Assembly (NCBI RefSeq): GCF_004348445.1
Contig: NZ_SMKV01000007.1
Coordinates: 124,001-188,000, forward strand
Length of the DNA stretch: 64,000 bases
Direction of reading: 5' to 3'
DNA from: Saccharopolyspora aridisoli
GTDB lineage: Bacteria > Actinomycetota > Actinomycetes > Mycobacteriales > Pseudonocardiaceae
Made by a program: the position numbers and the translations under genes. Shown piece by piece: positions 56,963 to 62,690 of this stretch (positions are counted from its first letter, which is position 1; each line of letters opens with the position of its first letter). A model generated the notes under the pieces. The model saw nothing but the letters and a program-made list of their open reading frames with translations, was not told the DNA's origin and did no database searches.

Positions 56963-57052
56963 GTCATGCCCGGCTGATCACTGCGGTCGCGGACTGCCGC
57001 AGCTGCCCTGATGCTCGTGCGTTACCGGTGCGTCCGAGGCGGAGGAGCGGTG

Positions 57053-57232
57053 ATGAGCAGGCCGATCGCGACCACAGCTCTCGCGGTGGCGCTGCTCGCC
57101 TGCGAGGGCGCCCCGACCGGAATGACCCCACCGCTTCCGCCGACCGAGTCGCGCGTGGAGCGAGGGACCGCCGGCGAAGGATTCGGGCAATTCCAGCAAG
57201 ATTCCGGATACCGACTCCTTCGAGGAACATGA
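57053..57232 (+). pseudogene. Small lipoprotein gene, possibly frameshifted
   Basis: GGAGGAG is followed by an ATG at 57053 and a 59-residue frame. It begins with a basic, hydrophobic signal and a lipobox (TTALAVALLAC, cysteine at residue 17). The open frame ends at 57232. A +1 change near 57130-57190 would instead join it to a protein-like frame running to 57347 (IPDTDSFEEHDELPDFRLCG, then TTCGQEPSS). This suggests one indel in a lipoprotein of about 98 residues. A genuine short lipoprotein cannot be excluded. Confidence 0.5.
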
Positions 57233-57509
57233 CGAGCTGCCGGATTTCCGGCTTTGCGGCACGACCTGCGGCCAAGAACCGAGCAGCGGCGAACAACAAC
57301 GTGCTCACTCGTCCGAACGCGGTTCGAACGATCCTTCGGAGTGCTGATTCCGACTCCGCTCGCGAAGATCGGTAGACCAACCGACGCAACTCCGATGCAC
57401 CGCCTTCTCCGCCGATCCGCCCATTATCACGATGGGCCGTCCGGTCGGAACACCCGGCGACCTCGCTCAGTGACGCCCTCGATACGATCGCCGATACCGA
57501 GCACCCCCC

Positions 57510-57584
57510 GGGGCAGTAGCTCAGCTGGTCAGAGCAGCGGACTCATAATCCGTCAGGTCGTGGGTTCAAGTCCCACCTGCCCCA
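57510..57584 (+). tRNA. tRNA with anticodon CAU (Met or Ile2)
   Basis: The 75-base gene has acceptor stem GGGGCAG with CTGCCCC, anticodon stem GCGGA with TCCGT, and loop CTCATAA, giving CAU. The T arm has GGGTTCAAGTCCC. Elongator Met and lysidine-modified Ile tRNAs share this anticodon and cannot be told apart here by eye. Its 3' half is repeated imperfectly 2.4 kb away, so it served as an integration site. Confidence 0.93.
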
Positions 57585-58090
57585 CGTATTCCCTGGTCAG
57601 AATGCTGTGCTGCAATCTTTCCACGGGGCAGCGTTGCACCTAAATGCACGAAACGTCGGATCACCCTGATCTGTAGGCGGGAATCGAGGGCGGCCCCTGC
57701 GGGGCCGCCTGCCTGCTGTTTCCCTGGCCGGGGCAGTGGTACCCCGGGCACGCGGCCTGGCGGCCGGTCCCGGGCGCCCGCGCCCCGACCACACGGGAAG
57801 GCAGGCGGACCCGCACCGCCAGAACGGCTTCACGCTCAGGCGCAAAGTGATGTCCTCGCCGCACGGGCATGCCAACAGGGTGAGGGGACTGGCACATCGG
57901 GTGCGGTTCGGTCGTGGCTGCTCTGTCCTCACCCCATCGACCTCCACAACGGCTATCAGCCCGCGTCGAGGGGGCAAGCTCGAGTGCCGGCATCTCCCGC
58001 TGACATCGCCGGTCGCCCCCTTGGCACGGCCTGTTGAGGGCTACGCCAGGTCGACGGGGTGAGGACTGGGCCTCCCTTTACAGGAATAGG
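57585..58090. other. Gap inside the element, tRNA-proximal
   Basis: The 506 bases contain a GC-rich hairpin near 57690-57710 (GGCGGCCCC TGC GGGGCCGCC). No gene is recognised with confidence. A minus-strand frame at 57597-57977 has a few cysteines (ACPCGED) and could be remains of an element gene. Confidence 0.45.
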
Positions 58091-58765
58091 CTACCGAAAA
58101 ATAGGAACCACCCCCTCTTTTTGGCAATCTTCCCCGAACATCTCCACGAGCCCACGGTGCGGAGTATTAGTTCCATGCGGGGTGCCGTCCCAAAGGTGGA
58201 GGACCCCCTTCTCGTTGCGAACCCACCTTCTATTCTTCGCATCTGTGAAGTTGATTTGGTAACCTTCACTCCTGACTATCATAGACGCGATTGCTCCGAT
58301 GTGATATTTGCGCCTCAATCGCGGTGTTAGCAAGCTCTCGAAGTGGTCCATGTGCGACACAAGAAGCCGGGAAAGTTCTTCGATTTCGACATCTTGGATG
58401 TCGCCCGTAGGTTCAGCAATATCCAGGCTGAACACTAGATTCGGCATGATGCCCGCGATTAATTGGACGTCATGCACCGGGATGTCGCTTGAATTGACGA
58501 ATCGCAGATTGACTTTCAGCTCGGTCTTGTCGTCGTTGCTCAGATCGACACTTAGCCAGGCGGCGAACTTGGAAGCCTGGTCCATTTCGTGCTGCTCGTC
58601 GCTATGTTGCTGTTGCGCCGAGGCGTATTTTGCCTGTCGCCAAGCTGCTGCGGCCGCAATGGAGGCGATAACGAAGGCTGCTATGGAACCGAGAGCAGAT
58701 ATCCAAGAAGGGACATTTCCCCAGTCAACCCCCAGTCGCAAGTAGCATTGATTGCACGCGATCAT
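58091..58765 (-). CDS. Membrane-anchored hypothetical protein of the element
   Basis: The 224-residue product has one N-terminal membrane helix (about residues 20-42, WISALGSIAAFVIASIAAAA) followed by a coiled region (QQQHSDEQHEMDQ) and a soluble domain (LKVNLRFVNSSDIPVHDVQL). No family is recognised. Its codon use has many AT-ending codons, unlike its neighbours, a sign of transfer. Similar cytosolic domains with one helix occur in phage and integrative elements. Confidence 0.72.
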   Translation of the reverse strand: MIACNQCYLRLGVDWGNVPSWISALGSIAAFVIASIAAAAAWRQAKYASAQQQHSDEQHEMDQASKFAAWLSVDLSNDDKTELKVNLRFVNSSDIPVHDVQLIAGIMPNLVFSLDIAEPTGDIQDVEIEELSRLLVSHMDHFESLLTPRLRRKYHIGAIASMIVRSEGYQINFTDAKNRRWVRNEKGVLHLWDGTPHGTNTPHRGLVEMFGEDCQKEGVVPIFR

Positions 58766-59378
58766 CGTAGGCTGCCCTCAGTTTTGATCAGGAAGAGTTC
58801 TTTCGGGTGTATCAGGATGAGCCTTCGCGTCGGCAGGAACCAAGCGACGGAAGTGTGTGACTGGCAGGTCGGCAACGGGGCGGCTTGGCAACCGGCAATC
58901 CATTCAGCTGTTTCTGAGGCAGGCAACGATGCCTCAGCGTGCACTCCGCCGTCCGTGGGCAGAGGAGCAAAAGGAAGCGGTACGGTCGTCCCGGCCCTCT
59001 TTCGGCACAGAACAGACGTTCGGTTCGGCCGCATCAGTAGGCAGTCAACCGTGAGCGATTTTCGGGTGGTTCAGTGTTGGGCGTGGCAACACTGCAGCCC
59101 AATCCTTAAGGGTGGCTGCGCGATGCGCATGGTTCTGCAGGTGCGAAACTGGCGCAGCTCCACTGCTCCTACCACACTCAATACGGAACAGGGGGTCAGT
59201 GGAGCTCTGCGTGAACGGCTCTACCATCGATTCCTCGATGGCGAGATAACTGTTACCCGTAACGCAGAAGCAAACAAACTGCCGTGGAGAGTGTACAGGC
59301 GCGATCTTTGAGTCGACTCGAAAAATTGTCCGCGAGTCCCCGGAGCGCCTCGGCAGCGTCAAACGACGGAGTCATCGG
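58766..59378. other. Gap inside the element without a defined gene
   Basis: This 613-base stretch has short frames on both strands with no clear start or family. It may be the remains of element genes. Confidence 0.4.
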
Positions 59379-59558
59379 TCATCGCCGAGTAGGAGGTCGA
59401 TGCCGCAAATCGCCCCCCAGACCGACCGCTCGTCTGAACGAAGAGCGTATGACTCCGCCCGTTTCCGCAGGTTCGGTGTAGTCCATGCCAGCTTCCTGAA
59501 GCAGTTTCGCGCGCTGGGCCTGTAGCTCTTCGGTCGATAGAGCCAATGCGGAACTCAT
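59379..59558 (-). CDS. Small element protein, probably truncated
   Basis: The 59-residue frame starts at an ATG (59558) preceded by AAGGGGG at good spacing. The N-terminal half (ALSTEELQAQRAKLLQEAGM) resembles small helical proteins encoded by actinobacterial elements. The C-terminal half is Arg- and Gly-rich and looks like out-of-frame sequence, so the gene may be truncated. Two 20-bp direct repeats lie just upstream. Confidence 0.5.
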   Translation of the reverse strand: MSSALALSTEELQAQRAKLLQEAGMDYTEPAETGGVIRSSFRRAVGLGGDLRHRPPTRR

Positions 59559-59574
59559 TGGTACCCCCTTACGT

Positions 59575-59616
59575 GCCCCACACTCGGTTGATGGAAGCCC
59601 CACACTCGGTTGATGG
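59575..59616. repeat. Two 20-bp direct repeats upstream of the small element gene
   Basis: GCCCCACACTCGGTTGATGG is present at 59575-59594 and exactly again at 59597-59616, a period of 22 bases. They precede the ribosome-binding site of the minus-strand gene, so they could be operator iterons. Confidence 0.85.
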
Positions 59617-59947
59617 TCGGTAGTCACGAGCCCGTGACAGCCCCATCGGAACACACTGCTACGACGTTTCCCGCCAAGACCATGGTTGCCTAGCACCTGA
59701 CGAGGCACAAGCCCTCAATCAGGCGTCGTCGCCGGGCACGTAGCCTCCTGACGTTGCCGTCGCGCGAGGGCTGATCACGCCGTTTCCTCGCGGTGCCTGA
59801 GTGCCTCACATGCTGTGCACCGCATCTTTACGAAACGACGAAAAACATCCGCAGATGACCCACCTCGAGGGGCATTTGCGACGCAATCCATGCTGATCAC
59901 GAGCCATGTTGGCAACCGATGTCAGACAAGGACAGAACAGGACCTGC

Positions 59948-59994
59948 ATCCGTCAGGTCGTGGGGTCAAGTCCCATCGGCCCCGTATTCACAGG
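59948..59994. repeat. att-like duplicate of the tRNA 3' half
   Basis: ATCCGTCAGGTCGTGGG is identical to the tRNA, and after one substitution TCAAGTCCCA follows. CGTATTC matches beyond the tRNA end. The T stem is broken, so it is not a functional tRNA gene. Confidence 0.8.
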
Positions 59995-60254
59995 TGGAAG
60001 CATGTGGCGGGGAAAGGGGGGGAAGATCATCTGTACACCTTCCCCGCACTTCAATTCCGAACCGGATGACCTCTGATGCGGCGGCCCGTGTGGACGTCCT
60101 GCGTCGTCGGACAACCGCGCGCCGAGCTGATCTGTGATGGGACGATCGGAAGCTTGCCCGGGATCGGCACGGTCGGCTTCCTGAGAGGTCCTGGAGGTCT
60201 TCCGCGGAATGGACTCCGCCGGGGGATTTCCGAAAGTGGGATGAGATCCAGAGT

Positions 60255-60685
60255 GGACCGCCGGAGAGGAGCCGGTCGCTCCGGTTTCGAAGACGCCGCC
60301 GGTCCGCAGCGTGCACGTCACCGGCCGGATCAACAGGAACCGGCGGCTGAGCGTCTCGCGGTCGAGGACCACCGCCAGCAGGGGCACCATCACGACCGGC
60401 GTGTTGACCAGCACGGCGGACAGCCCCACGCCGACCTCGTAGATCGCCTGCGTTCACAGCAGGGCATCCGCCGCGAAACAACGCTCCGGCCGTGGCCGCC
60501 CATACTGCCTGACCAGGCGAGATGCGTCCGCCGGTGGCGCGCTCGGCAAGCGCGAGCGGTGCCAGCAACGGGAGAGCGAGGACGCAGCGGAAAAACGACG
60601 CCGTAACCGGGGGAGTGGCGGACGGCGCCACGAACAGTCCCGAGGTGGCCATGCCGAAAGCCTCGAACGCCGTCGCAAGCACGGG
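60255..60685 (-). pseudogene. EamA (DMT) transporter fragment, frameshifted
   Basis: Two reading frames contain parts of one EamA domain: FFRCVLALPLLAPLALAERA, then after a frame change near 60475 AIYEVGVGLSAVLVNTPVVM and VPLLAVVLDRETLSRRFLL. The N-terminal half and C-terminal end are absent. The gene is thus a decayed drug/metabolite transporter. It lies just beyond the att-like repeat. Confidence 0.75.
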
Positions 60686-60800
60686 CCGAGGTGGGAAACC
60701 CGCGACGAGCCCTCCACCTCGGACGGTCAGGACCACACCGCCAAATGCTACGGGCGCAGTCAGCACCGGCGCACCGCAATAAAGATCGTCGCCTTCGAGG

Positions 60801-62435
60801 TTAGCTCCGGTTGAGCACGCGCCCGGCACCCGCGACGACGGTCGTGGCGAGAACCCACCCGCTGATGATCAGCGCGAGCGCGACCGCCTTGCTCCACCCC
60901 GTCGGATCCCACGCCTTGTCGTGGCCGAGGTCGACCAGGGGGATGAGCAGGTCGAGGCTGTAGAGGAACGGATCCCAGGTCGGGCTTTCGCCTTTCTTCA
61001 CCGCGGTCACCGGCCCGGCGACCGAGAAATAGGTGGTTCCCGACGCGAGGAGACCGGTGAGCCAGGCCAGCGCGAGAGCGGGGCGGTGCCCGAACCCGAC
61101 AGTGATGTCCTGCAGCGCTCCCCAACACGCGCCGAGCGGGCCCATCGCCCGGTGGCGGCGGCGTTCTTTGAACCGCTGCACCCGCCGCGCGTCCTGGTCG
61201 AAGCCGTCGCGCTGCAGAGCTGCGGCGAGCTGCGCGTACGGCGCGGGGGAGAACGTCGCAGGGGCTGCGGGGTCCGTCACCGCCGACGGCGTGGTGATGG
61301 AGTGCTGGTGCATCCACTTCAAGCGGGTGCCGATGGGGCACGGCTCGACGTCGGTGTTGCGCTGGGTGACTCTTTGGTAGTGCGTGCCGGTCAGTTCGAT
61401 CGTGCACTTTTCGGGCCAGTGCGGCGGATCGTCGGTCAGCCTGCCGAAGCGGCCGTCCCGTAGGCTGATCGCGCCCTCCGACTCCGGTGCCAAGCGCAGC
61501 GTGAGCAGGAGCGCGTCTGTCTCGATGAGCAGCAGGGCCCAGCCGTGAGGTTGACGAACCGTCGTGTTCACGAAGGCCAGCGCGCCGCCGATCTGAGCCC
61601 CGATGAGGTTGACCGCGCCGTTGGCGACGAGACCGGAGCACATCAGGCTGCGATCGACGGTGAGGCTGTCCGCGGACAGGGCGAGAGCGTTCGGGGTGTT
61701 CAGCCGTGCACGGGGCATTCCCAGGTCTCCGCTGATTCGCGAGCCGACAAGGTGGACCTCTCCGTCGGCGACGAGGTCTCTCATCGAGAACTGGGAATCG
61801 ATCGTGCTGTACTCGGTGTTCAGCGCGCGTCGGCCCGGATTGCGCAGGCGAGACTCGTCTAGCACCACCGGGCCGGAGATCCGCGCGTGGGACAGGCGCA
61901 TCTCTCCGTCGACTGTGGTCTCGCGACCGAAGACCCCTTGCTCGATCAGCGTTCGCTCCGCATCGATGCCCGGGTGGTCGGCGTCGCCGGTCAGGTGGGC
62001 GGAGTCGAGGGACAGGTGTCCGTCGATCCGAGCGCCGGCCAAGTCGACCCGAGCGGTGAAGCCCTCGTTCAGCTCGACGGCGCCGCTCGTGCGCAACTGC
62101 CTGGCGTAGTCGAGGTGGGGAAGTCGGCAGCCGGGGAGTCGCAGCGAGCCGAGTTGGGCCTCCGCGAGTCGGACGGGCTCGTCGAAGTGGCACTCGCGCA
62201 GTTCGACGGGGAAGTCGAGGCGGGAGCCGGTGAGGTCGACGGGACCGGTGATGGTCGCGCCGGTCAGGCGAAGTGCGTGGTTCCCGCGTCGCCTGGTGAG
62301 CAGGTCCGCGAGCACGTGCGCGCGGATCGGCCGATCCCGTTGGTCGAGGACGATGTCGATCGGTTCTCCGGAGCGGGCGGTTCGGAGCACCGCGCGCTCG
62401 GCTCGGTTCACTCGCCCCAGGCTGCCGTTGATCAC
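60801..62435 (-). CDS. Membrane protein with N-terminal pentapeptide-like beta-helix
   Basis: The 544-residue protein has a long region (about residues 50-330) of repeated LxGxxIxGxLxL-type turns (LTGATITGPVDLTGSRLD, LAGARIDGHLSLDSAHL), which suggests a right-handed beta-helix. The C-terminal part has two to four hydrophobic spans (about residues 435-540). Actinobacterial homologues are often labelled membrane-associated oxidoreductases without evidence. A soluble linker has RVQRFKERRRHRAM. The function is unknown. Confidence 0.8.
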   Translation of the reverse strand: MINGSLGRVNRAERAVLRTARSGEPIDIVLDQRDRPIRAHVLADLLTRRRGNHALRLTGATITGPVDLTGSRLDFPVELRECHFDEPVRLAEAQLGSLRLPGCRLPHLDYARQLRTSGAVELNEGFTARVDLAGARIDGHLSLDSAHLTGDADHPGIDAERTLIEQGVFGRETTVDGEMRLSHARISGPVVLDESRLRNPGRRALNTEYSTIDSQFSMRDLVADGEVHLVGSRISGDLGMPRARLNTPNALALSADSLTVDRSLMCSGLVANGAVNLIGAQIGGALAFVNTTVRQPHGWALLLIETDALLLTLRLAPESEGAISLRDGRFGRLTDDPPHWPEKCTIELTGTHYQRVTQRNTDVEPCPIGTRLKWMHQHSITTPSAVTDPAAPATFSPAPYAQLAAALQRDGFDQDARRVQRFKERRRHRAMGPLGACWGALQDITVGFGHRPALALAWLTGLLASGTTYFSVAGPVTAVKKGESPTWDPFLYSLDLLIPLVDLGHDKAWDPTGWSKAVALALIISGWVLATTVVAGAGRVLNRS

Positions 62436-62690
62436 GAGACCACGTCTACCAGCCGATCGAACACCTCGGGGGTGCTTCGTCGCGTTCTACGCGTTAAAAG
62501 GGCTGCGGAGGTCGAGCATTCCGGCTTCGCTGTGATCAGCGACCGGTTGGTGTTGTTCTGGTGCGGCGGCGGGTTCTGGCTCGACGAACTGGACCGGGGC
62601 GATCTCGTCCGGAGCGGCCTGCCTGGGTGCCGGTGTCCCGGAGGACACGGGTGTTGCGGTGGTTATGAGGAACCTTCCTGATAGCAGCGC

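Follow-up and report, generated by a model that had tools for sequence, protein, structure and literature searches.

A probable AICE-type element stub in a CAU tRNA gene of Saccharopolyspora aridisoli and the hairpin-rich non-coding module within it

The 2.4-kb interval that follows a CAU tRNA gene of Saccharopolyspora aridisoli is probably an AICE-type tyrosine-recombinase element that has been reduced to a stub in this gene by deletion of its backbone. The interval is located in a stretch of 64,000 nucleotides (contig NZ_SMKV01000007.1, positions 124,001 to 188,000, hereafter the window), which belongs to one of the 83 contigs of the 6.0-Mb genome (GCF_004348445.1). A preliminary description of this DNA had proposed the remnant of an element integrated in a CAU tRNA gene, and this proposal is supported by a direct repeat, by the empty site of a related genome and by the foreign composition of the interval. 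The tRNA gene, its repeats and the flank beyond them are as follows.

57510..57585, forward strand: intact CAU tRNA gene, called as tRNA-Met with anticodon CAT by ARAGORN; its 3' half contains attL
57548..57583, forward strand: proximal direct repeat (att core), spanning the anticodon loop to the acceptor stem
59948..59983, forward strand: distal direct repeat (attR), decayed, with three substitutions followed by the loss of AC
59984..60081, forward strand: host flank, found directly 3' of the tRNA gene in genome G016 (empty site)

The ungapped alignment of 57548-57583 with 59948-59983 covers 36 bases, of which 33 are identical (92%). The chance of at least 33 matches in 36 is approximately 5e-11 for the whole window on both strands under a simple composition model, and the match of the repeat against the own genome has an E value of 6.2e-8. 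A 2-base gap extends the repeat through GTATTC, in agreement with the imperfect recurrence of 49 and 47 bases claimed earlier, and the stretch ATCCGTCAGGTCGTGGG, said to be kept in the distal copy, is present in both copies. The distal T stem, described as broken, is indeed altered (CCCAC to CCCAT, with TTC to GTC in the T loop), but it is weakened rather than destroyed. The best four of five own-genome matches to the tRNA are the gene itself, the distal copy and two partial matches (81-82%), and an Rfam scan of 57000-61000 returned nothing but the tRNA at gathering score. The direct repeats of relatives at this tRNA are up to 49 bp long at 98% identity, and that of G008 measures 55 bp at 96%. 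The gene at 57510-57585 may alternatively encode tRNA-Ile2.

The comparison with an empty site, proposed earlier as a check, was provided by G016, the closest relative compared as judged by flank identity. In G016, the tRNA gene is directly adjoined by the sequence that lies 3' of the distal copy in the window, and when the window flanks are joined at the repeat, 258 of 283 positions are identical to G016 with 4 gap positions. This match of the flank shows that the site of G016 is empty and that the distal copy is the displaced original 3' end of the tRNA gene, which has since decayed. The ~2.4 kb between the repeats is thus inserted DNA, and the intact 3' half (57548-57585) would, by the usual mechanism, have been brought by the element. 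The corresponding stretch of G010, including the tRNA end, displays a 75% match over 128 bp. The occurrence of the same interval with normal composition in all relatives, which would speak against an insertion, was not observed: the whole interval was not seen beside the tRNA in the 21 other genomes of the genus (the G012 stretch, with 708 bases downstream, being too short to be informative), and only pieces of it are found there, namely the left end in G001 and G015 and the module, whole or in part, in G005, G006 and G007. Two further segments of the window, 60806-61761 and 62048-62456, are missing between the aligned G016 blocks; they lie wholly or almost wholly within a pentapeptide-repeat ORF (60801-62435) outside the element remnant.

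The GC content of 57586-59947 is 59.4% as compared to 69.6% for the window, and that of 58079-59947 (57.0%) is below all 1243 overlapping equal-length windows within the window. The lower GC noted earlier therefore holds for the interval overall but not for 57683-58078, which is GC-rich (72%). The unusual codon use is evident from the third-position GC of the one long ORF of the interval, which is 0.62 as compared to 0.86-0.94 in five neighbouring genes. Partial copies of tRNA genes exist, and the repeat could accordingly be viewed as a partial tRNA duplication or a chance similarity with no element integrated; this reading is opposed by the repeat statistics, the clean empty site and the foreign composition, is contradicted by the empty state of the G016 site, and is considered extremely improbable.

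The same tRNA gene has served as a docking site in other genomes of the genus. A second downstream copy of the tRNA 3' half was found in at least 8 of the 22 genus genomes including the own one, a lower bound since some contigs end near the tRNA, and other elements of 1.3 to 17 kb are present at the same CAU tRNA in at least 7 of the 21 other genus genomes. The repeat distance is 2.4 kb in the window, 17 kb in G001 and G008, 14 kb in G007, 9 kb in G005, 3.5 kb in G018 and 1.3-1.4 kb in G021, while G006 carries two elements in tandem, with the first repeat at 7.7 kb and the second 4.0 kb farther. A downstream copy of the 3' half also exists in the more distant relatives G023, G033, G035 and G039. 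In G001, the 17-kb element is followed by ~100 bp resembling the left end of the window interval; in view of this match and that of G015, 57586-57682 is read as an element end and the tRNA locus of G001 as a stack of elements. The earlier suggestion that such a site may guide further integration is thus supported in kind by the other elements at this tRNA, tandem in G006 and stacked in G001.

The 17-kb AICE-like element of G008 shares with the window stub the attachment site and the host flank 3' of attR. It differs in its left end and in possessing a tyrosine integrase (PF00589), an HTH_17 protein and an FtsK/SpoIIIE-like protein (E 6.6e-5; 22.9 bits, slightly under the 24-bit cut-off), as well as the Mrr and NACHT-LRR genes. 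The latter form a defence-like cargo (locus L028) of a Mrr-type nuclease (Mrr_cat) and an NNH1-NACHT-LRR protein. The own genome has 11 PF00589 matches, none within the window. Eight of the 11 integrase loci were scanned for tRNA genes, and the three integrases closest to those of the tRNA-Met elements adjoin tRNA-Leu, tRNA-Val and tRNA-Lys; an integrase for this att site, the search for which had been proposed, was not found among the 11 matches.

The contents of the interval are given below.

57586..57682, forward strand: element left end; similar sequence directly 3' of the tRNA in G015 and 3' of attR in G001
57683..58078, forward strand: truncated hairpin-rich non-coding module, 396 bp, without ~22 bases of its conserved left end
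57849..57871, forward strand: conserved module core; two bases differ in the window copy as compared to the other nine aligned copies
58091..58765, reverse strand: intact 224-aa ORF of lower GC, with a hydrophobic N-terminal stretch as judged by eye
58766..59814, no strand assigned: decayed low-GC DNA, with no DNA match in the 21 other genus genomes
59575..59616, forward strand: two identical 20-base copies at 22-base spacing, within the decayed part
59815..59964, forward strand: element right end, 79% identical over 153 bp to a stretch of G009

The left end has matches only in G015 and G001, both at the same tRNA, and no intact parent is among them; the G001 copy was shown by blastn, and a further search of the left end gave G015 only. 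No integrase was recognised by eye among the predicted ORFs of G015. As for the features of an AICE, site-specific integration with direct repeats, usually at a tRNA gene, is seen in the window. Neither integrase, rep or tra genes nor fragments of them were found in the interval: PF00589 has no match in the window, and the three ORFs of the interval have no Pfam match above cut-off that would indicate an integrase, an FtsK-like TraB or a replication initiator. The translated interval, when compared with nine element stretches, gave matches to nothing but module DNA, left-end DNA and, weakly, a single G023 stretch. The parent type is consequently judged from the site, from the module and from both ends. 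As expected of an AICE-derived remnant, end and internal sequences are shared with other elements, namely the left end, the module and, with G009 only and inside another element, the right end.

The 224-aa ORF is a probable cargo gene. A six-frame search of related genomes detected homologs of its product, with 29-44% identity, in 5 of the 40 other genomes. The protein had no NCBIfam match and nothing above cut-off in Pfam; PADLOC gave one unconvincing match (E 0.03), the genome-collection search no relative and the plasmid collection no match. One ORF inside the decayed stretch (58766-59814) and one overlapping it are both without a Pfam match. The degenerate frames reported earlier are thus represented by the decayed DNA, but not by the 224-aa ORF, which is intact and has homologs.

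The right-end-like stretch of G009 also lies ~1.8 kb beyond a module copy, the spacing from module to right end being nearly equal in the window and G009 (1.74 and 1.77 kb). It is placed inside a tRNA-Lys element, ~3.2 kb short of attR, and continues into a few bases resembling, by eye, the start of the tRNA-Met repeat. It would represent a true end in G009 only if it belongs to an older remnant nested in the tRNA-Lys element, which may be the case.

Copies of the module share the same limits across related genomes, and at least a piece of it is present in 20 of the 41 genomes. Besides that of the window, nine copies are near full length, including one on contig C83 of the own genome that is 90% identical; copies are located at L084, L065, L066, L067, L068, L069, L070, L072 and L073. 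A 30-base pattern of the left part (at most 3 mismatches) occurs at 34 sites in 17 of the 41 genomes, all of this genus, as compared to 0 sites for the reversed control. When treated as RNA, the module surpasses 99 of 100 shuffles in folding, and the ten aligned copies have long hairpins in common. Two-sided changes that keep the pair were recorded at 15 of 116 pairs as compared to a mean of 6.8 in shuffled alignments, a value of 15 being reached in 0 of 500 shuffles; slid structures gave 1 to 4 such changes. The shuffles do not correct for the relatedness of the copies, and the structure used is one predicted from this very alignment.

The other nine aligned copies start with ~22 conserved bases more than the window copy. 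The latter starts with ATCGAGG where the other copies read ATCAAGG, and the left end of G015 also reads ATCGAGG. The meeting of left end and module at this shared short sequence indicates that a deletion probably fused the two. The module gave no Rfam family at gathering score and, as DNA, no match in the plasmid collection; the titles and beginnings of abstracts obtained in literature searches contain no description of such a module, although earlier reports of it may exist. For the C83 copy, a search for an empty site was unsuccessful, the only candidate being a partly shared flank of G001 that itself has a module copy.

An autonomous copy with a transposase was sought on contig C81 of G007, where two module halves lie 4.3 kb apart; the ORFs, as judged by eye, include no clear transposase, and one between the halves resembles the end of a tyrosine integrase. 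A second repeat of ~240 bp (L099, L100, L101 and L102) has approximately 60 bases in common with the left part of the module (GTGTNTAAACTTTCTCTACTTCATCAAGGGCGGCCCC...) and, by eye, forms a long hairpin whose tip varies.

Within the genus, the link between the module and AICE-type genes was evident from the comparison of 20 module regions, hand-chosen from known copies and including two cut by contig ends (L141 and L149), with 20 control regions of hand-picked coordinates, 19 in the test genomes and one in G010. An integrase, identified by a home-made profile built from four element integrases and the own-genome integrases, was found in 12 of 20 module regions as compared to 0 of 20 controls. 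The corresponding figures are 11 for TraB-like genes, 10 for a small conserved protein, 9 for GntR and 7 for DUF2637, each again as compared to 0 of 20 controls. At least one of integrase, TraB-like, small protein and DUF2637 genes, GntR being left out, is present in 17 module regions as compared to 0 control regions, or 16 as compared to 0 without L141. Eight of these 12 integrases score above the PF00589 cut-off and that of L144 passes Phage_int_M; that of L141 is slightly under the PF00589 cut-off, and those of L145 (truncated where the stretch ends) and L152 (74 aa) have no Pfam family. Pfam also backs the names FtsK/SpoIIIE, GntR, HAD hydrolase and DUF2637 for representatives. Three of the 20 regions (L147, L148 and L151) are without these genes in the stretch read. 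A frequent order, in a comparison that left out the G005 stretch for want of an exact motif, is TraB-like and small protein genes, then GntR with one or two further genes on the opposite strand, and then the module.

Of 8 loci tested for tRNA repeats (L147, having two tRNAs, was left out), 6 have the module or its left part, and in all five in which both repeats were found, the module lies between the tRNA 3'-half repeats, 0.1-5.1 kb from attR. The module locus L144 has no second tRNA repeat in the stretch, and L298 and L299 have neither module nor second repeat. Repeats of the very CAU tRNA studied here enclose a full module copy in G007 and, twice, its left part in G006. One of the five loci is a 13.4-kb tRNA-Lys element of the own genome (L300 768-14246, contig C83), which has an integrase and carries its module copy 0.5 kb inside attR; this element resembles the stub in its module copy, and differs from it in the tRNA used and in its adjoining integrase. 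The association of the module with AICE-type genes and its position between repeats favour an interpretation of the remnant as the right-hand part of an AICE-type element.

Phages too use tRNA 3' ends by means of tyrosine integrases, and the interval has no tra gene that was found, as would be the case for the remnant of a prophage or another non-conjugative island at the same tRNA. The left end and module are, however, shared with elements at the same tRNA or near TraB-like, GntR and DUF2637 genes, and the exact 42-base att pattern had no match in viral contigs, which is a weak test. Such an origin is therefore regarded as distinctly unlikely.

The 23-base core pattern of the module was found in at least 119 stretches of the genome collection, 80 of which were analysed and form the basis of the following figures. 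By hand count, 62 of the 80 loci belong to Amycolatopsis, with 21 in A. thermalba and 22 in A. deserti. A blastn match to the module was obtained at 77 of the 80 sites, 46 of them over at most 30 bases and 9 over more than 250 bases. An integrase was present at 2 loci, a TraB-like gene at 4, the small protein at 4 and GntR at 2, together 7 loci. These AICE-type genes lie near 7 of the 9 long matches (more than 250 bases) as compared to 0 of the 71 others, and near 5 of 7 when two Saccharopolyspora loci are excluded. This suggests that the near-complete module keeps its link to AICE-type genes beyond the genus, whereas the core alone is no mark of an AICE. Most of 12 aligned A. thermalba sites share the core together with a different long hairpin, the arms of which change together as judged by eye. 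The core is common to a high-copy interspersed family of Amycolatopsis (L181, L190, L228 and others).

The dispersed nature of the module raises the question of two or more events, in which remnants were stacked and the module arrived separately as a dispersed repeat. The module or its left part is present at many sites (the 34 sites in 17 of 41 genomes), the core-sharing family is high-copy in Amycolatopsis, and the right-end match of G009 lies within a different element, all of which favour such a history. The window module is, however, cut at its left edge just where the left end resumes, at ATC(G/A)AGG, and its spacing to the right end is near that of G009. A composite origin is accordingly held to be unlikely, and the single element reduced by deletion remains the preferred reading.

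According to this preferred reading, an AICE-type tyrosine-recombinase element would have integrated into the 3' half of the CAU tRNA gene and supplied the copy of the tRNA 3' end that it carried, which kept the gene whole while the original 3' end was moved 2.4 kb downstream. The backbone (integrase, replication, transfer and regulator genes) would then have been deleted, fusing the left end to the right-hand part at ATCGAGG / ATCAAGG. The residue would consist of the left-end stub and the truncated hairpin module, followed by one cargo gene that is still intact, by decayed DNA and by the right end with attR, and would presumably have lost its own mobility; an integrase of matching specificity could in principle excise it or add another element.

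PMC3218068 mentions AICE remnants and an AICE integrase targeting tRNA-Met (Faln5456), and PMC9513070 describes accretion at a single tRNA, together with decayed versions and cargo that has become pseudogenized. The integration of AICEs into tRNA genes, tRNA-Met among them, is thus already described, as are their remnants, stacking and decay, and the stub is a further case. Like AICEs of the pSAM2 and pSE211 type and their remnants, it is marked by the site-specific use of a tRNA 3' end bounded by direct repeats, by variable cargo and by decay and stacking at one site; it differs from them in that no integrase, replication or transfer gene was found and most of the parent is gone.

MITEs and REP-like bacterial palindromes are short, non-coding, palindromic and dispersed. 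The module is similar in all these respects, but differs in that most of the examined regions of its copies in this genus also hold AICE-type genes. There is about an even chance that 57683-58078 belongs to an undescribed family of structured, palindromic non-coding modules of ~430 bp that AICE-type elements of Saccharopolyspora and of certain related genera regularly carry, that is located on the attR side after the regulator operon and that shares its core with the high-copy Amycolatopsis family. The module may act as a terminator or insulator, as a replication or transfer site or as a structured RNA, or it may be a hitchhiking repeat.

The stub itself is an ordinary genomic scar at one CAU tRNA gene that has been docked recurrently across the genus, and it illustrates the decay of an element to a remnant while the tRNA remains intact. 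The module may matter more than the scar, and could mark decayed elements if its role is established.
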